Of a DNA stretch of 64,000 bases, positions 46,163-63,501 are shown in pieces. The position numbers and the translations under genes are program-made. This DNA comes from Marinobacterium lutimaris (GTDB lineage: Bacteria > Pseudomonadota > Gammaproteobacteria > Pseudomonadales > Balneatricaceae), in NCBI RefSeq assembly GCF_900108065.1, contig NZ_FNVQ01000001.1, positions 682,001 to 746,000 of the forward strand, written 5' to 3'. Each line of letters opens with the position of its first letter. The first letter of the stretch is position 1. Below the pieces are notes generated by a model. It was given only the letters and a program-made list of their open reading frames with translations. It was not told where the DNA came from and searched no databases.

Positions 46163-47344
46163 TTAGCTGAGTGACAGCAGGGCCTCGACCAGAGGCTCGT
46201 TGTCGTAGTAGCCGGTTTGCGGGTTTATTACCGGCAGGTCGATGATCTCAATACCCAGTTCCGCCAGTCGTTTTTCCGGTATGCCTCCCTCGTAGCGGCC
46301 GTTCCTGCTGTCGATCAAGATAAAGTTGATCAGGTCGCTGGCTTCAAGCTCCTCACCATCACGCTGCAGGTGTTCCAGCAGCAGATTGAGGCTCTTCTCC
46401 AGTGTCATTCCCAGCTGTTCCGGATCCTTGCCCTGATTGGGAATAAACACCTTCGGGGTGCGGTTGCGGGCGATGGCGCGACCTACGCCCTCTGGCAGCA
46501 GGTTTGCCAGCAAGCTGGAGTAGAAGCTGCCCGGCGGGTAGCAGATCAGTTCCGCCTGCTGGATCAGTTTGCGGTTGCGCTTGCGAAGCTGAGTGGTGGC
46601 GATCTCCGGCTGCTGCAGGGATTCGCAGAGCCGCAGCGACCGTATCGGCGAAGCGAGCGGGTCACACTCCTTGCCGGTCATACGGTGCTGGCCGATCACT
46701 TCCGAACCGTCCTCAAGCTCCGCATGCAGGTGCAGATCGTCATCGACGATGGCACGCACCGTGCCCTGAACGTTCACCAGCTTCGAAAACAGAAACAGGA
46801 TAGGTTCCAGGTCGCGGCGGTTGTTGAGATAGCCGCCGGCCAGAATCAGGTTGCCAATGCTGGCGCCCGCCAGGTCGAAATCCTCTGGCATGGCATCAAT
46901 AAAAAACATCAGATGGTTGCAGATCAGGCTGCGCATCGGGTTCAGGATCGCATCCATCAGAGGGTCTCTGCCGCGCACCAGCGCCTTGAGCTGCTTGCGA
47001 AGCTCCTCCTGACTCTCATCCTTGGGAAGACGATAGTTAAACAGGCGGTAAACGTCCGGGTGACCTAGCACGGTCTCATCGGCCAGTGCCATCAGGCGGC
47101 TGCGCAGATCGCCGATAGCGGGCATATCGAACGCCTGGCGCAGGATCGCGGAACTGCCGCCGGAGTCGAACGGCGTGACCAGGTGGATGGAGTTATGGGT
47201 GTAGTGTTTGAGCGTACGTGACAGGCCGTTCAGCGCCGAACCGCCGCTGAAGAACAGAATGCGCGGCCCCAGCTCCGGAATCTTGCGATAGCGACTGACC
47301 TTGAGCGGGTCGGGCAGGCACACCTCCCGGGTAACGCTGACCAT
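46163..47344 (-). CDS. CofD/YvcK-like protein of a GAK-type cassette
   Basis: A 393-aa CofD-fold protein. ILFFSGGSALNGLSRTL near the start, LVTPFDSGGSSAIL, IGDLRSRLMALAD, DFDLAGASIGNLILAGGYLNN and ICYPPGSFYSSLLANLLPEGVGRAI follow the pattern of CofD (2-phospho-L-lactate transferase) and GlmR/YvcK proteins, which bind nucleotide sugars or a phosphate donor. I recall this branch as the CofD-related member of the so-called GAK system. The start at 47344 is chosen over 47416, but no strong ribosome site decides it. It diverges from the kinase operon with about 190 bp between starts. Confidence 0.82.
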   Translation of the reverse strand: MVSVTREVCLPDPLKVSRYRKIPELGPRILFFSGGSALNGLSRTLKHYTHNSIHLVTPFDSGGSSAILRQAFDMPAIGDLRSRLMALADETVLGHPDVYRLFNYRLPKDESQEELRKQLKALVRGRDPLMDAILNPMRSLICNHLMFFIDAMPEDFDLAGASIGNLILAGGYLNNRRDLEPILFLFSKLVNVQGTVRAIVDDDLHLHAELEDGSEVIGQHRMTGKECDPLASPIRSLRLCESLQQPEIATTQLRKRNRKLIQQAELICYPPGSFYSSLLANLLPEGVGRAIARNRTPKVFIPNQGKDPEQLGMTLEKSLNLLLEHLQRDGEELEASDLINFILIDSRNGRYEGGIPEKRLAELGIEIIDLPVINPQTGYYDNEPLVEALLSLS

Positions 47345-47533
47345 GTCCGTTTCTGCACTCCCTGTTATCGATTGGCGAAGTCTACCGGCAGTGATCTGTG
47401 GGCCACAATAGCGCAAAGGGCGAAATTACGCGCCTTTCAACGGGTTATGTTAGCCTTCATGAAACTGAAATGTTGAAACCGTCGCCGGTTAAGTATGCTA
47501 CGCCGGTATTTCCCGAGTGAAGCCGTGGCCAGC

Positions 47534-49174
47534 ATGATCAAACTGCCGAAGCCGTTGAGAGATAACCTCCACTTTTTGTGTGTTGAGGTGGACTCTCAGG
47601 TCGCCAGTCTACAAAGCTATTTCGAAACACCGGCCGCCGCCGTTGCGCGTCGTATCGTTGACCGGGCGGGGTATGCCTATAACCTCAAGGTCCGCATCCA
47701 CAGCGCCACGGTGCAGAAGCTGCGCAGCAGCAAACGCCAGGCGCAGCGAGACCTGATGCTGCGCAGTATCGAATTTATCGCCACTGACCTTGAACGCCTT
47801 GCTGAGATCAGCCGCAACTGCGTCCGGCAGCTGGAATATATCGAAGCGTTCGAGCTGCTCGGCGCTAAACGCTATATCGGTATGCTGAAGCGCGTGCGCA
47901 AGGCGATAGCTCAGATCGAGCCCGCGCTGCAGGCGGACGATTCCACCCGCGCTATCGAGATGGGCAAGGGGCTCGGCCGCATGGCCAGCGACTACGACAA
48001 ACTGCTCAAACGCTATCGCTTGGCATTGAAAGAAGTGCCGGAGCATACCGATGACCTGACCCGGGCCCTGTTTGTGGCCTACGAGGTGCGCCAGATGGGC
48101 GAAGCCCTGGTGCATATCAGCGAATCGATCATCTCCGCGAACCTGGGGCAGCCGGTTAACTTCGAACGTTTCTTCTCGCTGCGCTCGCTGGTGTCCGACC
48201 TGGAAGCCGATGAGGAGGATCTCCAGATCTCCGCCATCGCGCAGACACGCTCCGGCAGTTCGATCTCCGGTATATCCGCCGGTGATGAGGGCGAAAACGG
48301 CTACCTGGCGATCTTCAAGGATGGCGAGAAGCGCAAGGTGAAAGAGGAGCGTGCCGGAGTACGTAGCTGGCACGAGATCTATCCGGGGCTGGCGCCGAAG
48401 ATTCTTTCTTACGAAAAACGCGGCCAGTCCGCAGCGCTGCTGATCGAGCATCTGCCGGGGCACACCTTTGAGCAGATTGTGCTGAATGAGTCGGACGAAC
48501 TGGTGGATGAGGCGTTCAAGCGCCTGGCTAAAACCCTGAAGTCGATCTGGAAGGCGACTCGCAGCCAGGAGCCTGCCCAGGCCGGCTTTATGCAGCAGCT
48601 GCAGAAACGGATGAACGAGGTGTACCGCATCCATCCGGAATTCGCCCGCACCGACAGCCAGATCTGCGGTCTGCCGGTACCATCCTTCGATACCCTGGTA
48701 GCGGCCGTTACCAAGCGGGAAAAACGCTGGCCGGCGCCGTTCTCGGTCTATATCCACGGCGATTTCAACGTCGACAACATCATCTATGATCCGATGGAGC
48801 GGCGTATCAACTTTATCGATCTGCATCGCTCCCGCTACATGGACTACGTGCAGGATCTGTCGGTCTTCATGGTGTCGAATTATCGTCTGCAGGTGCTCGA
48901 CAGCGACACCCGCTCCCGCATCAATGACCTGGCGCTGAGGCTTTATGATGTGGCCCGGCGCGAGGCGAAAAAACAGAATGACGAGCTGTTTGAAGTACGC
49001 CTGGCCCTTGGGCTGGTGCGCTCTTTTGCCAGCTCCACCCGCTTTATTCTTGATAAATCCCTTGCCCGTCGCATGTTTATGCGGGCCCGTTATCTGCTGG
49101 AGCAGGTGCTGGCCATAGAGCCGGGCAAGGAGACGAAGTACCGTATTCCAATGAAGGAGATTTTCGTTGACTGA
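47534..49174 (+). CDS. PhoU-like domain fused to APH-type kinase
   Basis: A protein of 546 aa (start at 47534; an alternative is 47495). The N-terminal half (about 1-230) is all-helical and PhoU-like, with repeats such as MLRSIEFIATDLERLAEISR. A variable acidic/Ser/Gly stretch follows (about 230-275). The C-terminal half is an aminoglycoside/choline-kinase fold: the catalytic loop HGDFNVDNIIYD (about residue 407) and INFIDLHRSRYMDYVQDLS carry the catalytic Asp and the metal Asp. So it likely phosphorylates a small molecule or protein under control of the PhoU-like part. It overlaps the next gene by 8 bp. Confidence 0.8.
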   Translation: MIKLPKPLRDNLHFLCVEVDSQVASLQSYFETPAAAVARRIVDRAGYAYNLKVRIHSATVQKLRSSKRQAQRDLMLRSIEFIATDLERLAEISRNCVRQLEYIEAFELLGAKRYIGMLKRVRKAIAQIEPALQADDSTRAIEMGKGLGRMASDYDKLLKRYRLALKEVPEHTDDLTRALFVAYEVRQMGEALVHISESIISANLGQPVNFERFFSLRSLVSDLEADEEDLQISAIAQTRSGSSISGISAGDEGENGYLAIFKDGEKRKVKEERAGVRSWHEIYPGLAPKILSYEKRGQSAALLIEHLPGHTFEQIVLNESDELVDEAFKRLAKTLKSIWKATRSQEPAQAGFMQQLQKRMNEVYRIHPEFARTDSQICGLPVPSFDTLVAAVTKREKRWPAPFSVYIHGDFNVDNIIYDPMERRINFIDLHRSRYMDYVQDLSVFMVSNYRLQVLDSDTRSRINDLALRLYDVARREAKKQNDELFEVRLALGLVRSFASSTRFILDKSLARRMFMRARYLLEQVLAIEPGKETKYRIPMKEIFVD

Positions 49175-50057
49175 GCCCCGCGTAGCCGTGATCGGTATTC
49201 CCGGCAAGTGGTCCACTGAAGTACTGGCGGATGCGCTGGAACAGCGCACCGGTTTCCGCCAGGTGGTCGATATGGCAGACGTATCCCTGGATCTCACCGA
49301 CAACAGCCTGCGCTGCGGTGCGTTGAATCTGTGCGAGCTTGATGGCCTGGCGGTTAAGAAGATCAGTGCTGAATACAACCCCAACACCCTGGATCGCCTG
49401 GAGATGCTGCGTACGGCAGAACAGCAGGGCGTGCGCGTGTTCAGCGGCGCGGAGAAGATCTTGCGCCTGGTAGACCGGCTCAGCTGCACCGTGACCCTGC
49501 GTAACGCCGGTGTCCCAATGCCGGACACAGTCGTTACCGAGGATCTTCAGGCCGCCTTCGATACCGTTAAACGTTTCGGCGAAGCGGTGTTCAAGCCGCT
49601 GTTCTCTACCAAGGCGCGGGGTATGTGTGTGCTCGGTGGCGAGCAGAGCGATGCAGAGCTGCGCGACGCCATTGCCGCCTTCAAGGCTGACAACCCGATG
49701 CTCTATATCCAGCGCAAGATCGAGCTCTCTGGCCGTGACCTTGGCATGGTGTTCCTTGGTGGTCAGTACCAGGGTACATATGCTCGCGTATCCCAGAGCG
49801 ATACCTGGAACACCACTATCAATAGCGGCGGCCGTTACGAAGCGTTCGAGCCCGATGCCGAGCTGATCGAGCTGGCGCGCAGGGCGCAGGAGCCGTTCGG
49901 ACTGGATTTTACCACCGTGGACGTGGCGCTGACCGACAACGGGCCGATTGTGTTTGAGGTCTCTGCGTTTGGCGGCTTCCGTGGAGCCCTGGAAGGCGCG
50001 GGCATCGATGCGGCTGGCCTTTACGCGGATCATATTCTGCAGCAGGTACGTCGATGA
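49167..50057 (+). CDS. ATP-grasp enzyme of a GAK-type cassette (RimK-like)
   Basis: A 296-aa ATP-grasp ligase of the RimK/MptN style. It has a short Rossmann-like start (VAVIGIPGKWSTEVLADALE), the ATP-grasp core with AVFKPLFSTKARGMCVLGG and MLYIQRKIEL, and the metal-binding end LTDNGPIVFEVSAFGGF. Such enzymes join a carboxylate to an amine (often Glu residues) with ATP. The start codon is TTG, supported by AAGGAGA 8 nt upstream, and it overlaps the kinase gene by 8 bp. The next gene overlaps by ATGA. Confidence 0.88.
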   Translation: MTEPRVAVIGIPGKWSTEVLADALEQRTGFRQVVDMADVSLDLTDNSLRCGALNLCELDGLAVKKISAEYNPNTLDRLEMLRTAEQQGVRVFSGAEKILRLVDRLSCTVTLRNAGVPMPDTVVTEDLQAAFDTVKRFGEAVFKPLFSTKARGMCVLGGEQSDAELRDAIAAFKADNPMLYIQRKIELSGRDLGMVFLGGQYQGTYARVSQSDTWNTTINSGGRYEAFEPDAELIELARRAQEPFGLDFTTVDVALTDNGPIVFEVSAFGGFRGALEGAGIDAAGLYADHILQQVRR

Positions 50058-51136
50058 ATATTATGCCGCAAGAGATTGCCGATCAGCTGATCGAGGGACG
50101 GGAGTTTCTCGATACGAGCCTTTTACTGGCACTGGATGGGCAGCAGATCCAGGTGCGTTCAAACTCTGAAGAGTTGCTGGCGCGTCTGCGAGAATACTTC
50201 GCCCATATCGTCGTTGAGAGCGGCGAGCCGGATATCACCGTGCTGGCGGTTGAGCGCAATGCGCCCCAGCTCGACTTCCCCTACGAGGACTGGCCCCGTG
50301 AACCTGGCAAAACCGGGCGCAAGGACGCCTGTCAGGATCTGCCGGGTGCCAGGGTAATCCATAAGGTGCGCACCGGCATGACCTTTCTGCAGAGTGAGTC
50401 CCTGCGTATCGCCGCCGGTCCCTGTGTCGAGAATGACAACCAGGTCATCAACTTCATCAACAACCAGTATATGACCTGGCTGCAGCGTAACGGCTGGCGC
50501 AACTGCCATGCGGCCGCGCTGAGTATCAATGGTGGTGGCTTGGCCATGGCTGGCTTCTCCGGTGGCGGTAAATCCACACTGATGCTGCATATGCTGGAGC
50601 ATCCGGAGACGGCGTTTATCAGTAATGACCGTCTGTTTATACGCCGCAACGAGGATGGCGTGGAATGCGTAGGCATCCCCAAACTGCCGCGCATTAACCC
50701 GGGTACCATTCTGAATAACCCGAGGCTCGCACCGATGCTGAGCGCCGAGGAGCAGCAACAGCTGCAGGCGATGCCCAGGGCTGAACTCTGGGACCTGGAG
50801 CAGAAGTACGATGCGGATATCGACAGGCTCTATGGCAAGGGGAGAATAGAGACTCAATCCTGCTCGCTGCGCGCCTTCATGGTGCTCAACTGGGAGCGGG
50901 ACAGCGACGAGCCGCTCAGCGTGGAACGTGTGGACCTGAGTCAGAGAAAAGACCTGCTGGCTGCTATCATGAAATCACCGGGGCCTTTCTATCAGGACGC
51001 CGATGGGGCCTTCCATCAGGGTCGCGCACCCTTCGATGAGCAGGCGTACCTGGCGGTTCTGGAGAGCGTTCCGGTCTATGAAGCGCGCGGCGGCGTTGAT
51101 TTCGATGCCCTCGCAGAGCGCTACCTCAACCTCTGA
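50054..51136 (+). CDS. HprK-related kinase
   Basis: A 360-aa protein whose C-terminal half resembles the HPr kinase/phosphorylase: Walker A AGFSGGGKSTLM (about residue 166-177) and TAFISNDRLFIR, where the Asp of the HprK-like catalytic loop is placed. The N-terminal part (1-140) has no clear family. I recall it as the HprK-related kinase B of the GAK system. No HPr or PTS gene is nearby, so its substrate must be something else. It follows the ATP-grasp gene with an ATGA overlap. Confidence 0.85.
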   Translation: MNIMPQEIADQLIEGREFLDTSLLLALDGQQIQVRSNSEELLARLREYFAHIVVESGEPDITVLAVERNAPQLDFPYEDWPREPGKTGRKDACQDLPGARVIHKVRTGMTFLQSESLRIAAGPCVENDNQVINFINNQYMTWLQRNGWRNCHAAALSINGGGLAMAGFSGGGKSTLMLHMLEHPETAFISNDRLFIRRNEDGVECVGIPKLPRINPGTILNNPRLAPMLSAEEQQQLQAMPRAELWDLEQKYDADIDRLYGKGRIETQSCSLRAFMVLNWERDSDEPLSVERVDLSQRKDLLAAIMKSPGPFYQDADGAFHQGRAPFDEQAYLAVLESVPVYEARGGVDFDALAERYLNL

Positions 51137-51163
51137 TTCCGTTCAGCAAGTCGCGAGCCCTCC

Positions 51164-52150
51164 ATGTTCGAACTGATGCTGCTCCGGCACGGCCGGGCGA
51201 AAAAGGCCGATATGGATTATTCCGATCGGGATCGGCCGCTCAAGAATAGCGGCAAGCGCTCGGCCCAGCGGCTGGGCGTGCAGCTGCAGTTTCAGGGTGA
51301 TCAGCCGGACCTGGTGCTCAGCTCGCCGGCAAAGCGTGCGCTGGAAACCGCTGAAAAGTGCGTCAAGGCGATGGGGCTGCCGGCCTCAATGATCGAAACC
51401 GATGAACGCCTCTACGAAGGCGACGCCGAAGCATTGATGGCAGCCATCGCAGAGCGAAGCTCCAGGGGGCATCGCCTGCTGCTGGTGGGGCACAACCCGG
51501 CGCTGGAGCAGTTGATCAAACAGTTGGTGCCGGAGCCCCGGTTACCGGGGCAGAGCGATTTTCGTTTGCGCAAGGGGATGCTGGTGCAACTGCGCCTGCC
51601 GGCAACCGGTGCGCTGCCGCTGAACGGTGAGGGCGAGTTGATCGGTTCTATCTCGCCGGATCAGTTGCCCGAACTCTTTCCCTGGCCCGGTCCTGGTGGC
51701 GCCGAACAGCGTGAACGCCCCGCCTATTACTACACCCAGTCCGGTGTGATTCCCTACCGTTTCAGCAGTGGTGGACGGCTTGAACTTCTGCTGATCACTT
51801 CCAGCAGCGGGCGCTCCTGGGGCGTCCCCAAGGGGATTGTCGAGCCGGGACTTACGCCGCAGGAATCCGCCGCCAAGGAGGCGTTGGAGGAGGCGGGCGT
51901 CCAGGGCAAGGTACATCCCGAGCTGCTCGGTTGTTACCGTCAGCCCAAGTGGGGCGCGGAGTGCGATGTGGAGTTGTTCGCGATGCGTGTCGATAGTCTG
52001 ATCGAAGATGCGGACTGGGATGAGGATCACCGCTGCCGGCGCTGGTGCGATATCGGTGGGTTAGATGGCGCCCAGCTCAAGCCGGCGCTTAGAACCTTGA
52101 TCGATCTCTTACCAGAACGGCTGAAGGAGTCTGGTTTATGGCCCGTTTGA
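51164..52150 (+). CDS. SixA-type histidine phosphatase fused to a Nudix hydrolase
   Basis: A 328-aa two-domain enzyme. The N-terminal histidine phosphatase (about 1-160) has LMLLRHGRAKK (catalytic His 8), LVLSSPAKRALETAE and LLLVGHNPALEQL, the SixA arrangement. The C-terminal Nudix domain (about 185-325) has the box GIVEPGLTPQESAAKEALEEAGV, with Lys in place of the usual Arg before EAxEE. Fused SixA-Nudix proteins usually act on phosphorylated nucleotides or inositol-type phosphates. It is 27 bp after the kinase gene and overlaps the next phosphatase gene by 13 bp. Confidence 0.88.
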   Translation: MFELMLLRHGRAKKADMDYSDRDRPLKNSGKRSAQRLGVQLQFQGDQPDLVLSSPAKRALETAEKCVKAMGLPASMIETDERLYEGDAEALMAAIAERSSRGHRLLLVGHNPALEQLIKQLVPEPRLPGQSDFRLRKGMLVQLRLPATGALPLNGEGELIGSISPDQLPELFPWPGPGGAEQRERPAYYYTQSGVIPYRFSSGGRLELLLITSSSGRSWGVPKGIVEPGLTPQESAAKEALEEAGVQGKVHPELLGCYRQPKWGAECDVELFAMRVDSLIEDADWDEDHRCRRWCDIGGLDGAQLKPALRTLIDLLPERLKESGLWPV

Positions 52151-52839
52151 TCGCCGCCCTGATTCGTCATGGCGACTACCATCAGCTGCCCAATACGCCG
52201 AGCGCTCACCAGCCTTTTCCGCTGACCGAGCGCGGCTTTGAGCAGGCCGACCTTGCAGCGGCTAATATGGCCAGGGTGTTGGCAGAGCAGGGCTGGGTTC
52301 CCGATTACCGGGTGGATTCATCACGGCTGTTGCGCGCCTGGCAGACCGCAGAGCGTTTCTGTGCCGCGCTGGAACCGATGTTCGAGCGCACGCCGGAACA
52401 GCAGGGCCATTCCGCGCTGGCGGAGCGGGGCGTCGGCAGTGCAGCCAACCTGACTGTCGCGCAGATTGAGTCGATTCTGCAGCAGGACCCGCGTTTTGAT
52501 GCGCCGCCTGCGGACTGGAAATCCAACAGCCACTACCGTTTACCGCTCCAGGGGGCGGAATCGCTGATGGATGCAGGTGAGCGGGTGGCGCAACATATCG
52601 AGCTTCAGATGTTGATGATGGAACCCAGCGATACCGATCGGGTAAGGCTGTTCGTGGGTCATGGCGCAGCGTTTCGTCATGCAGCACATAGACTTGGTGT
52701 ATTGGAGTTTGAGCAGATCGCGGCGCTGAGCATGTACCATGCGGAGCCTGTTTATATCGAGATGCTGGAAGGTGGCCGGTGGCGACATGTGGCCGGTGAC
52801 TGGAAGGTGCGCGGCAAGCGCGAGTCATACGCTGATTAG
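52138..52839 (+). CDS. Histidine phosphatase family protein
   Basis: A 233-aa phosphoglycerate-mutase-like phosphatase with LIAALIRHGDYHQLP (catalytic RHG), TERGFEQADLAAANMARVL, VDSSRLLRAWQTAERF and VRLFVGHGAAFRHAAH. It is a second, separate histidine phosphatase straight after the SixA-Nudix gene (13-bp overlap). The presence of two phosphatases next to two kinases suggests a phosphorylation-dephosphorylation cycle. The substrate is unknown. Confidence 0.88.
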   Translation: MARLIAALIRHGDYHQLPNTPSAHQPFPLTERGFEQADLAAANMARVLAEQGWVPDYRVDSSRLLRAWQTAERFCAALEPMFERTPEQQGHSALAERGVGSAANLTVAQIESILQQDPRFDAPPADWKSNSHYRLPLQGAESLMDAGERVAQHIELQMLMMEPSDTDRVRLFVGHGAAFRHAAHRLGVLEFEQIAALSMYHAEPVYIEMLEGGRWRHVAGDWKVRGKRESYAD

Positions 52840-52941
52840 AACTGCATGCTGAAGTGCTCAGGCAGATTTCAGGGTTTTAACATTTCGATCACATCTGCCG
52901 GTTAGGGTGGAAGCTTTTATCAAGTCTGCGTCTGGGTTCTC

Positions 52942-54270
52942 ATGGTATTCGAAAGAAATATAATTCCTGAAATCAAAAGCTTGAAACGCTTTCCTGAAGC
53001 TCAGGGTGCGATGCCAACCATCGCCGAGCCCTGGGCGCTGGATGATACCCGCTCGGCCAACAAGGCGATGATCCATAGCCGCAGCAAGGAATCAAACCCG
53101 CTATTGGATAATCCCGAACACTGGTCCTGGCCCAAGCGACCGATCTGTTTTATTGCTGATCCGCACGCCGATTACCAGGCCTTTGTCGCCTCGCTGGTGG
53201 CAAGCGGGGGTGTTGTCACCCAGGGGCATGGACCGCGCGACTTCAGCCTTACCAAGGCCGGTCGCAAGATGCTGTTTATCATCGGTGGTGACTGCCTGGA
53301 CAAGGGCCCGAGTAACCTGGAGCTGCTGCGGGCTATTCGTCATCTCTTCGATCTGGGAGCACGGGTCAAACTGCTCGCCGGTAACCATGATGTGCGTTTG
53401 CTGATGGGTATCCGCGCCATGGGGCTTGAGCGTCACCCAACCACCGAGCACCTGTTTGTGCGCATGGGTGACAAGGTGATCCCGCTGTTTAAAGAGGTGC
53501 AGGCCTACTGCAAGGGCAAGGAACTGAAAAAAGCGCCGGATGAAGCCGAATGCAAACGCCGGCTGTTTCCCTCGGATGACTGGTTCGAGCGTTTCCCCGA
53601 GGCGGCCGCCGACTATATGAATGCCGCGGCCATCGAGCGTGAACTCAAGCGGATGCACGGTAAATTCGATAAGTTTGAATCTGCGTGCGCCGATGCGGGG
53701 CTCAGCATGCGTGATGTCTACGCTATCGCCCAGGAGTGCCGAAAGCTGTTTCTCAAGCCCAAGGGCGAGTTCGCCTGGTTCTTCCGCGATATGCAGCTGA
53801 CCTACCGCAGTGGCTCGTTTTTGTTCCTGCATGCCGGTCTTGATGACAGTATTACTGAGGTGGTGGAGCGAAAAGGGGTGAAAAAGCTCAATCGCGATTT
53901 TCGCAAGCAGATCGAGCACGACCTGTTCCGCTTTTACTTCGGCCCGCTGGCGAATACCATGCGCACCAAGTACCGCACCGCGGATCGACCGCTAACCGAA
54001 GCGGGCGTCGCCAGAATCGGTGCGCTGGGGATCCATACCCTGGTGCATGGCCATATCAACCGTACCCACGGCCAGCGTCTGGCGTTGAAGCACGGCTTGC
54101 TGCATCTCGAGGGCGATATCACACTGGATCGCAACTCGCGTCACAAAGAGGGGCTCAAGGGCGTGGGCGCCGGTATCACGATGATCCGGCCCGATGGCCA
54201 TATCGTTGGTATCAGTAATGATTATCCCGCTGCCAAGGTCTTTCGCCCGGGTATGTACTCGCAGATCTAA
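52942..54270 (+). CDS. Calcineurin-like metallophosphoesterase
   Basis: A 442-aa phosphoesterase. The metal-binding motifs are in order: FIADPHADYQAF (D, H), FIIGGDCLDKGPSN (GD), LLAGNHDVRL (GNHD) and LGIHTLVHGHINR (GHxH-like). A long helical insert (about residues 190-290) distinguishes it from simple Ser/Thr phosphatases such as PrpE or diadenosine tetraphosphatase. The first 20 residues and start are uncertain, as no strong ribosome site precedes the ATG. It is 102 bp after the histidine phosphatase gene. Confidence 0.82.
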   Translation: MVFERNIIPEIKSLKRFPEAQGAMPTIAEPWALDDTRSANKAMIHSRSKESNPLLDNPEHWSWPKRPICFIADPHADYQAFVASLVASGGVVTQGHGPRDFSLTKAGRKMLFIIGGDCLDKGPSNLELLRAIRHLFDLGARVKLLAGNHDVRLLMGIRAMGLERHPTTEHLFVRMGDKVIPLFKEVQAYCKGKELKKAPDEAECKRRLFPSDDWFERFPEAAADYMNAAAIERELKRMHGKFDKFESACADAGLSMRDVYAIAQECRKLFLKPKGEFAWFFRDMQLTYRSGSFLFLHAGLDDSITEVVERKGVKKLNRDFRKQIEHDLFRFYFGPLANTMRTKYRTADRPLTEAGVARIGALGIHTLVHGHINRTHGQRLALKHGLLHLEGDITLDRNSRHKEGLKGVGAGITMIRPDGHIVGISNDYPAAKVFRPGMYSQI

Positions 54271-54293
54271 TGTTTTAATGAACGGATGACACC

Positions 54294-54560
54294 ATGCTAG
54301 AGAACAAACAGCGCTTCCGACATCAGTCGCTGCAAGATTGCCAGAGCATTCAGGAGATGCTGGACGCCATCGCCAAGGGCATCGCGAAAGGGGAGCTCTC
54401 GTTCAGCGACGAGGATGGCGAGATCCGTATGAATCCCCGCGGGCTGCTGGATCTGAAAGTAACCGCCAGCGAAGAGGACTCGCGCCACCGTCTGGAGATC
54501 CGCATCGCCTGGCAGGCCGACGAGCCGCTACAGGCGAAAGAACCGCTGAAGGTGGGCTAA
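54294..54560 (+). CDS. Small amphi-Trp domain protein of a GAK-type cassette
   Basis: An 88-aa protein. It begins with a charged helix (MLENKQRFRHQSLQDCQSIQEMLDAIAKGIAKGEL), then DEDGEIRMNPRGLLDLKVTA, then strand LEIRIAWQADEP with the conserved Trp. This fits the amphi-Trp domain, which I recall as a small family that occurs with HprK-like kinases and ATP-grasp enzymes. It could be the carrier or substrate of the enzymes encoded upstream. It follows the metallophosphoesterase gene by 23 bp. Confidence 0.75.
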   Translation: MLENKQRFRHQSLQDCQSIQEMLDAIAKGIAKGELSFSDEDGEIRMNPRGLLDLKVTASEEDSRHRLEIRIAWQADEPLQAKEPLKVG

Positions 54561-62465: not shown

Positions 62466-62506
62466 AATGCACCTTTAGGAAATTGTATATTTACTTTTAG
62501 TGCATT
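62466..62506. promoter_or_regulatory. Inverted repeat in the LysR-ttdA divergent promoter
   Basis: AATGCAC (62466-62472) and GTGCATT (62500-62506) are perfect 7-bp arms separated by 27 bp, directly at the start of the LysR gene. The AT-rich spacer probably contains a promoter. It may be an operator of the LysR regulator. Confidence 0.45.
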
Positions 62507-62601
62507 TTTACACGCTTTCTACCCCCTATGATAGCCACACGTTCCATCCGGTTTGTTCCTTTAAGGGGCAATCCGGGACACTAAAAGAAGAGGATACAAG
62601 C

Positions 62602-63501
62602 GTGGAGAAAGAAGCCGCAGTTCAGTCCCTGACTGACACTCTCGCGAAATTCACTGCCTATATCGGAAAACGTCTTCCAACGGACGTTAAAGAGAAACAG
62701 GCGGAGTTGCGTGCCAAAGAAACCAACCCCATGGCGATCGAGATCTTTGACGTGATGGCGGAAAACCAGGACGCGGCCGACAAGCTGGATCGTCCTAGCT
62801 GCCAGGATACCGGTGTCATTCAGTATTTCATCCAGGCAGGCTCATCCTTTCCGTTGCTGGGTGAACTGGAGTCGATTCTGGAAGGGGCGACCCGGGGTGC
62901 AACCGAAATTGGGCCTCTGCGCCACAACGCCGTTGAGTCGTTTGTCGAGAAGAATACCGGTACCAATACCGGCTCCAAGATCCCCTGGCTCGATTGGGAA
63001 ATTCTTCCTGGCGAAGACTATGCGATCATCGATGTCTACATGGCCGGTGGCGGATGTACTCTGCCGGGCGCATCGACTGTATTGATGCCGGGACAGGGCT
63101 ACGAGGGTGTGGCGGAGTTCGTTCTCGATGTAATGACCTCGCGCGGCCTCAACGCCTGCCCGCCGCTGCTGGTTGGCGTGGGTGTCTCCACCTCGGCGGA
63201 GACCGCTGCACGGCTTTCCAAGAAGGCGATTCTTAAACCGGTCAACGCCCGCAATGCTAATGAACAGGCCGCTCTGCTCGAAGATCTGTTGACTGACGGT
63301 ATTAACGATCTGGGTATAGGCCCACAGGGACTCACCGGCGACAACACCGTGATGGGAGTGAATATCGAATCATCTGCGCGCCATCCTTCTACTATCGGCG
63401 TGGCCGTTTCCACCGGTTGCTGGGCGCACCGTCGTGGCCAAATCAAGGTCAATGCAGACCTCTCCTACGAAATTATCTCCCATCAGGATGTACAGCTATG
63501 A
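62602..63501 (+). CDS. ttdA: L(+)-tartrate dehydratase alpha subunit
   Basis: A 299-aa iron-sulfur dehydratase alpha subunit of the class I fumarase family (E. coli TtdA is 303 aa). Cluster Cys are in [21 protein letters not shown] and [11 protein letters not shown]. With TtdB it converts L-tartrate to oxaloacetate; a two-subunit fumarase is the other possibility. The GTG at 62602 with AGAGGA upstream is chosen, as the earlier frame from 62500 reads through non-conserved residues. It overlaps ttdB by ATGA. Confidence 0.88.

Follow-up and report, generated by a model that had tools for sequence, protein, structure and literature searches.

A GAK-type gene cassette of Marinobacterium lutimaris and the association of its relatives with Pho-box-like sites and phosphate genes

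This study concerns a window of 64,000 nucleotides from the 5.57 Mb genome of Marinobacterium lutimaris (contig NZ_FNVQ01000001.1, positions 682,001 to 746,000 of the forward strand), in which a gene cassette of the type named the GAK system in protein-family databases occupies positions 46163-54560. Eight open reading frames (ORFs) were confirmed there (Table 1), seven on the plus strand and one, encoding a CofD-like protein, divergent and 78 bp upstream of the others as measured between the longest ORFs. The spacing of the seven plus-strand genes, in order, is -8, -4, +27, -13, +102 and +23 bp, in agreement with a preliminary description of the window, which put the overlaps at 4-13 bp and the gaps at 23-102 bp. 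Two genes probably start inside the listed ORFs, that of the CofD-like protein at 47344 (Met25) and that of the PhoU-APH kinase at 47534 (Met14); residue numbers of this kinase are counted from 47537, one codon past its likely start.

Table 1. Features of the GAK cassette, in positions of the window. Scores in bits are followed by the model cut-off where available.
Feature	Position	Strand	Basis
GAK CofD-like protein (YvcK/GlmR-CofD superfamily)	46163..47416	-	TIGR04357 (CofD_rel_GAK), 560 bits, cut-off 340; PF01933 CofD superfamily domain, 133 bits
Degenerate Pho-box-like site CCTTCATGAAACTGAAAT	47454..47471	+	Lies where relatives carry better Pho boxes; weak in itself
PhoU-domain/APH-fold kinase	47495..49174	+	PhoU 4q25 profile match, fold match, HGDFN...D
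GAK ATP-grasp ligase, RimK/LysX/MptN-like	49167..50057	+	TIGR04356 (grasp_GAK), 458 bits, cut-off 300; RimK chains
HprK-related kinase B, P-loop and catalytic-type residues retained	50054..51136	+	TIGR04355 (HprK_rel_B), 381 bits, cut-off 200
SixA-type histidine phosphatase-Nudix hydrolase fusion	51164..52150	+	His_Phos_1 and NUDIX
Histidine phosphatase	52138..52839	+	His_Phos_1, 58 bits
PPP/ApaH-type metallophosphoesterase	52942..54270	+	PF00149
Amphi-Trp protein, 88 aa, candidate substrate or adaptor	54294..54560	+	TIGR04354 (amphi-Trp), 73 bits, cut-off 31

The cassette is a genuine, canonical member of the named GAK system. Four of its proteins exceed the cut-offs of the NCBIfam GAK models, and plasmid-borne relatives are annotated as 'GAK system ATP-grasp enzyme', 'GAK system CofD-like protein' and 'HprK-related kinase B', so the GAK-type identification in the preliminary description is borne out. 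Pfam cut-offs were passed for CofD, APH, RimK, His_Phos_1 with NUDIX, His_Phos_1, Metallophos and Amphi-Trp, and no Pfam family matched the HprK-related kinase B (HprK-B) at E 0.01. No function for the GAK families was found in the PMC literature, outside which lie most subscription papers and bioRxiv; an 'XXXCH domain' is mentioned there in one phage genome study.

About 130 cassette copies were compared in all. The neighbourhood survey covered 99 loci, namely the window, 18 loci from a genome sample and 80 from a scan of GTDB genomes, these being the best 80 of 507 relatives found there; two pairs of loci (L034/L051 and L035/L113) are duplicated, and Roseibium is over-represented. The best 80 belong nearly all to Gamma- and Alphaproteobacteria, mostly marine, with Roseibium, Halomonas, Thalassospira, Magnetovibrio and tubeworm symbionts among the hosts. 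The ATP-grasp family scored above cut-off in 7 of 57 close relatives, four of them among the eight members of the genus, and in 12 of 349 phylum genomes, 35 of 390 order genomes and 13 of 369 class genomes, the samples overlapping one another. Most of the 99 loci carry the same genes in the same order, a recurrence far beyond chance, and the co-occurrence in other genomes on which the preliminary description had made its identification depend was thus observed. Gene order, fixed for the most part, is at times permuted or split (L036, L074 and L105) with the content largely kept, which speaks for functional coupling.

Among the 66 loci with at least 2.5 kb of flank on either side, here called complete, the PhoU-APH kinase and the ATP-grasp were present in all 66, the phosphoesterase and the amphi-Trp protein in 65 each, HprK-B in 64 and the histidine phosphatase in 62, as against 33 for SixA-Nudix and 30 for CofD. 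The last two are optional. All four families of the named GAK system (TIGR04354-TIGR04357) are clustered here as in other genomes, with no structural difference, and the named set omits the PhoU-APH kinase, the histidine phosphatase, SixA-Nudix and the phosphoesterase, each at least as constant as CofD. A stand-alone Nudix gene was found in 34 of 97 loci, immediately before the kinase in 33 of these. In one genus the cassette takes a four-gene form of kinase, ATP-grasp, phosphoesterase and amphi-Trp protein (L037, L038 and L177); HprK-B and GAK CofD are absent genome-wide from the three genomes of this form that were tested. HprK-B is also absent from four genomes of the window's genus that have no GAK ATP-grasp. 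In six of the eight genomes having GAK CofD, its gene lies inside the cassette.

Plasmid-borne copies were also found, in 5 of 72,556 records at E 1e-40. Whole GAK cassettes are located on Rhodobacterales plasmids of 111-449 kb from Tritonibacter, Qingshengfaniella and Pseudooceanicola, which suggests that the module may move as a unit. A phage origin was rejected, as there was no match at E 1e-20 among 50,697 phage records. On one contig binned as a Halobacteria archaeon (L129, JABDRC010000298.1), perhaps mis-binned, a GAK cassette of proteobacterial type has CHAD and ParA genes beside it.

The PhoU domain of the kinase, together with the Pho-box and phosphate-gene associations set out below, is the main functional clue; the preliminary description had named this part of the kinase without drawing on it. 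Residues from about 18 to 219 form the PhoU domain and those from about 230 to 545 the kinase domain with its HGDFN...D signature. A profile of the kinase family finds the Pseudomonas aeruginosa PhoU in PDB (4q25) with E=1.6e-10, and a Foldseek search with the predicted model (pLDDT 82, pTM 0.54) gave a PhoU match with a TMt of 0.85 and an rmsd of 2.2. The Pfam PhoU model scores below its cut-off (19.6 bits against 23.5), as does the full-length PhoU equivalog phoU_full (21 bits against 130). The N-terminal domain matches PhoU along its length; its nearest known counterparts are PhoU and the PhoU domains of Na/Pi cotransporters, from which it differs in being fused to an APH-fold kinase. For the kinase part, the best-ranked folds are APH, choline, ethanolamine and methylthioribose kinases, and H407, G408, D409, F410, N411 and D428 are invariant among 37 sequences.

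HprK-B and the metallophosphoesterase also retain residues of catalytic type. HprK-B has an invariant H152, P-loop (SGGGKST, 169-175), N191 and D192 in 25 sequences, and the metallophosphoesterase, which matches ApaH chains at E of about 1e-3, has an invariant D73, H75, D117, D120, NHD (148-150), H297 and H371 in 22. The roles of these residues, the phosphoesterase metal ligands included, and of those in the APH part are presumably the ones known from the respective families. The SixA-Nudix protein scored 63 bits against the sixA model, under the cut-off of 74.5. HprK-B reached 18 bits with the HPr kinase/phosphorylase equivalog TIGR00679, far under the cut-off of 240, and the only HPr match in the genome lies on another contig (C10, the cassette being on C18). 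An action of HprK-B on HPr was rejected on these two grounds, and the earlier remark that no HPr gene is nearby holds.

Outside GAK, the best sequence matches of the cassette ATP-grasp are RimK, MptN and LysX ligases, including the RimK chains 4iwx (E=4.2e-19) and 5zct (E=7.7e-19); it is 96% identical to the ATP-grasp of M. mangrovicola. In NCBIfam it scores 148 bits with the MptN model and 31 bits with that of CofF. It differs from the RimK, MptN and LysX ligases in falling under the cut-off of each of their models and in an invariant E-V-S. This triplet, E264-V265-S266, was conserved in all 16 sequences compared and stands at the metal site, where related ATP-grasp ligases usually have E-x-N. 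As for the CofD-like protein, its sole NCBIfam match at E 0.01 besides its own family is YvcK (TIGR01826, 116 bits, cut-off 196), and it is 52% identical to a relative encoded near ugp genes.

According to a 2015 review, a PHO box consists of a pair of 7-base repeats with four bases between them, the repeat in E. coli being CTGTCAT (PMC4415409). With the first set of weights, 23 of 91 cassette upstream regions scored above the 95th percentile of their own shuffles. The weights were adjusted after this first look; with the new ones, sites scoring at least 20, the threshold for these counts, precede 16 of 91 cassettes compared with 20 of 622 other genes in those loci. The weights were then fixed before new loci were fetched, so that only the held-out test is clean; it gave 12 of 28 cassettes against 8 of 225 other genes (p=2e-8). 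With both sets combined and dereplicated, sites were found before 15 of 80 cassettes and 22 of 620 other genes (p=2.5e-6). As a composition control, 420 permuted half-sites were ranked: CTGTTAC came first, with 10 of 62 against 8 of 395 (p=1.9e-5), whereas CTGTCAT, as in E. coli, was sixth, with 12 of 62 against 31 of 395 (p=0.007). In nine aligned loci of one genus, out of twelve found, both half-sites are kept while the flanks diverge. Strong boxes are present in the genus of L039 and L040 and in Marinobacterium litorale (L113). An unbiased dyad search for promoter motifs yielded no useful motif, and the top dyads probably derive from coding sequence common to related species.

As a positive control, the scoring found sites upstream of pstS and phoU of the window's own genome, with scores of 22.2 and 22.4. 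The top background hits included phoB and a CHAD gene heading one cluster, as well as a pstS-like gene from the second set of loci. The window's own site, weak in itself, aligns with the better sites CTGTCACAATAGTGCAAT and ATGTCATAATCCTGCAAT of two congeners and has TTCAYGAAACTG in common with the site that precedes phoU of this genome. In the three plasmid cassettes inspected, the scores were 20.1, 20.6 and 17.1. It was also observed that between pstB and phoU of the window's genome lies a gene (L220:9307-10914, contig C15) for a 535-aa protein that appears by eye to be chemoreceptor- or sensor-like, preceded by a Pho-box-like site with a score of 19.7.

Neighbours were counted within the fetched flanks for Pst, PhoU, PhoB, PhoR, PPK, PPX, CHAD and Na/Pi transporter genes. 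Such phosphate or polyphosphate genes flank 18 of 97 loci (39 genes) as compared with 2 of 40 control stretches (2 genes; p=0.03), and after dereplication with the second set the count was 15 of 81 loci (p=0.035). The neighbours are of several kinds: pstCAB-phoU with phoBR near L055, ppk with CHAD near four loci (L066, L104, L118 and L124), NptA, and, among the held-out loci, pstCAB-phoU near L177 and pstS-pstC near L183. The GAK cofD gene stands outside the cassette in two genomes belonging to one genus, where a gene for a glycerophosphodiesterase, ugpC, ugpA and ugpB lie 2.5-7.5 kb from it.

Two further observations on the flanks are recorded here. A CHAD protein with an adjacent ParA-type ATPase recurs in eight loci (L043, L045, L066, L074, L104, L118, L124 and L129), and the N-terminal region of the CHAD protein looks CYTH-like by eye. 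CHAD domains are reported to bind polyphosphate (PMC6537752), and the pair could position polyphosphate granules. In addition, two GAK cassettes have nearby a gene for an ArsJ-associated (arsenate) type of glyceraldehyde-3-phosphate dehydrogenase (L177:15207-16220 and L204:6196-7218), preceded in both cases by a Pho-box-like site; the family was tested for the L177 protein, to which the L204 copy is 59% identical.

It is proposed, with a probability of roughly 0.5, that the cassette is a phosphate-responsive modification module for phosphate shortage; that it has some role in phosphate or polyphosphate homeostasis is rather probable. The data support the gene set, the conservation of residues of catalytic type, the PhoU fold and a statistical association with Pho boxes and with phosphate genes; that phosphate limitation induces the cassette, which way each reaction runs and that the amphi-Trp protein is the target are inferences. 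When inorganic phosphate is low, PhoB or a relative would turn on the operon through the Pho boxes, and the PhoU half of the kinase would read phosphate status and couple the signal to a phosphorylation. The RimK-like ATP-grasp may attach an amino acid to a carboxylate, and HprK-B, where present, may supply a second phosphorylation. The PPP-type phosphoesterase, the histidine phosphatases and the Nudix enzyme would undo these steps. Judged by its gene set, the cassette should carry out two phosphorylations and one amino-acid ligation, along with several reversals, and the cycle of phosphorylation and ligation on a small protein or phosphorylated metabolite suggested in the preliminary description is possible.

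The amphi-Trp protein is the likeliest candidate for the modified item, or for a scaffold presenting it, as it alone shows no recognisable enzyme domain and even the four-gene form retains it; that it is the substrate proper is suggested here tentatively. An FxHxSxQ motif is present in 72 of 77 copies. The motif serine is alanine in L039 and L040, both of which have HprK-B, and is retained in the HprK-less L037 and L038, which argues against this residue as the HprK-B site; phosphorylation of the conserved serine by HprK-B is accordingly disfavoured. A LysW-like carrier with a conserved C-terminal residue is unsupported, since the C-termini vary. A profile search of PDB gave weak matches only (best E 0.034).

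Several observations weigh against a phosphate-responsive modification module. The FxHxSxQ motif is lost in five of the 77 amphi-Trp copies, all from loci with HprK-B, and no modified residue is therefore claimed; the predicted model of the protein is poor (pLDDT 50), for which reason no fold search was made from it. As for the Pho boxes, 65 of the 80 dereplicated cassettes are below the threshold, the held-out loci unrelated to the first set are few (3 of 18 with a site, p=0.04), and the background genes include operon-internal ones, so that part of the DNA upstream of them is coding. The site in the window itself is weak, with a score of 17.9 that is reached at 46 positions of the window when both strands are counted. 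The neighbour controls are few, 40 stretches from nine cassette-bearing genomes with p=0.03-0.05, and only 3 of 30 held-out loci have phosphate neighbours; the ugp finding comes from one lineage. No phosphate gene was found around the window cassette in positions 39167-60057, to which the search of the window was confined, and the pst cluster of this genome is located on a different contig. Three of the five plasmid cassettes were inspected, and none of these has an annotated phosphate gene within 14 kb. Genome-wide, CHAD shows no enrichment, occurring in 6 of 13 genomes with GAK and in 170 of 336 without, which rules it out as an obligate partner, and PPK1, present in 18 of 19 cassette genomes, is too common for its presence to be counted.

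The main rival explanation, regarded as somewhat unlikely, is that the cassette serves to synthesise and break down a small phosphorylated metabolite, in the style of polyphosphate, diadenosine polyphosphate or inositol polyphosphate, which the kinases and the ATP-grasp would build and the Nudix, histidine phosphatase and ApaH-like enzymes degrade, with PhoU sensing phosphate. Enzymes of these three degrading types are typical of nucleotide and polyphosphate chemistry, and the kinases whose folds rank highest for the APH part act on small molecules. The stand-alone Nudix gene before the kinase and the ppk, CHAD and NptA neighbours also fit such a pathway, as does the report that Nudix and histidine phosphatase genes often follow ppk (PMC8003754). 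It would, however, leave the near-constant amphi-Trp protein without a job; furthermore, the ATP-grasp is nearest to amino-acid ligases rather than inositol kinases, and NCBIfam and Pfam revealed neither a polyphosphate kinase nor an inositol enzyme inside the cassette.

The phosphate link could also be a matter of hitchhiking, the cassette having an unrelated function and merely sitting in or near phosphate-regulated regions in some lineages. The patchy strength of the signal, the lack of genome-wide CHAD enrichment and the plasmid copies without named phosphate genes are in keeping with this, but the location of a PhoU domain inside the core kinase, the enrichment of Pho boxes in the held-out loci and the variety of phosphate neighbours make it quite improbable. 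An F420-like pathway, in which the CofD-like enzyme would attach a phospho-acid to an acceptor, glutamates being added by the MptN/CofF-like ligase, is most improbable and was rejected as the core of the system despite the CofD superfamily domain and the MptN and CofF scores: 36 of the 66 complete loci have no GAK CofD and 12 of 20 cassette genomes lack it altogether, so that it cannot be a core step, its only other NCBIfam match is YvcK, the GlmR (YvcK) protein is described as a uridyltransferase (PMC10128056), and the designation 'CofD-like' is a weak hint of F420. Apart from the cassette, an ORF at 62500-63501, near the end of the window, is similar by eye to the alpha part of class I fumarate hydratase.

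Two known gene groups resemble the cassette in part. The yvcI-yvcJ-yvcK-yvcL-crh region of Bacillus subtilis, taken with HPr kinase, likewise combines a Nudix protein, a YvcK/CofD-like protein and an HprK-type kinase with a small protein target, whereas the GAK cassette has no HPr found nearby and contains an ATP-grasp and a PhoU-kinase instead. A precedent for the gene types is the Streptomyces ppk-pptA(CHAD)-Nudix operon, reported to be under PhoR/PhoP; there too a Nudix gene is grouped with phosphate-handling genes under Pho control, while the three genes described include no GAK-type ligase or kinase (PMC8003754).

The phosphate association is the new content of this study, and it is statistically supported across the relatives and suggested, though unproven, for this genome. 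A bolder and rather unlikely extension of the phosphate-responsive module is that the cassette forms a novel arm of phosphate signalling, in which the PhoU-kinase, the ligase and the phosphatases would write a reversible phosphate and amino-acid mark on the amphi-Trp protein that relays to polyphosphate storage or phosphate uptake. The mode of action of PhoU in phosphate signalling was called unknown in the 2015 review (PMC4415409), and a PhoU domain fused to a kinase, with opposing enzymes encoded alongside, bears on how PhoU signals. The phosphate link makes the GAK families, named but functionally unexplained, a testable system.

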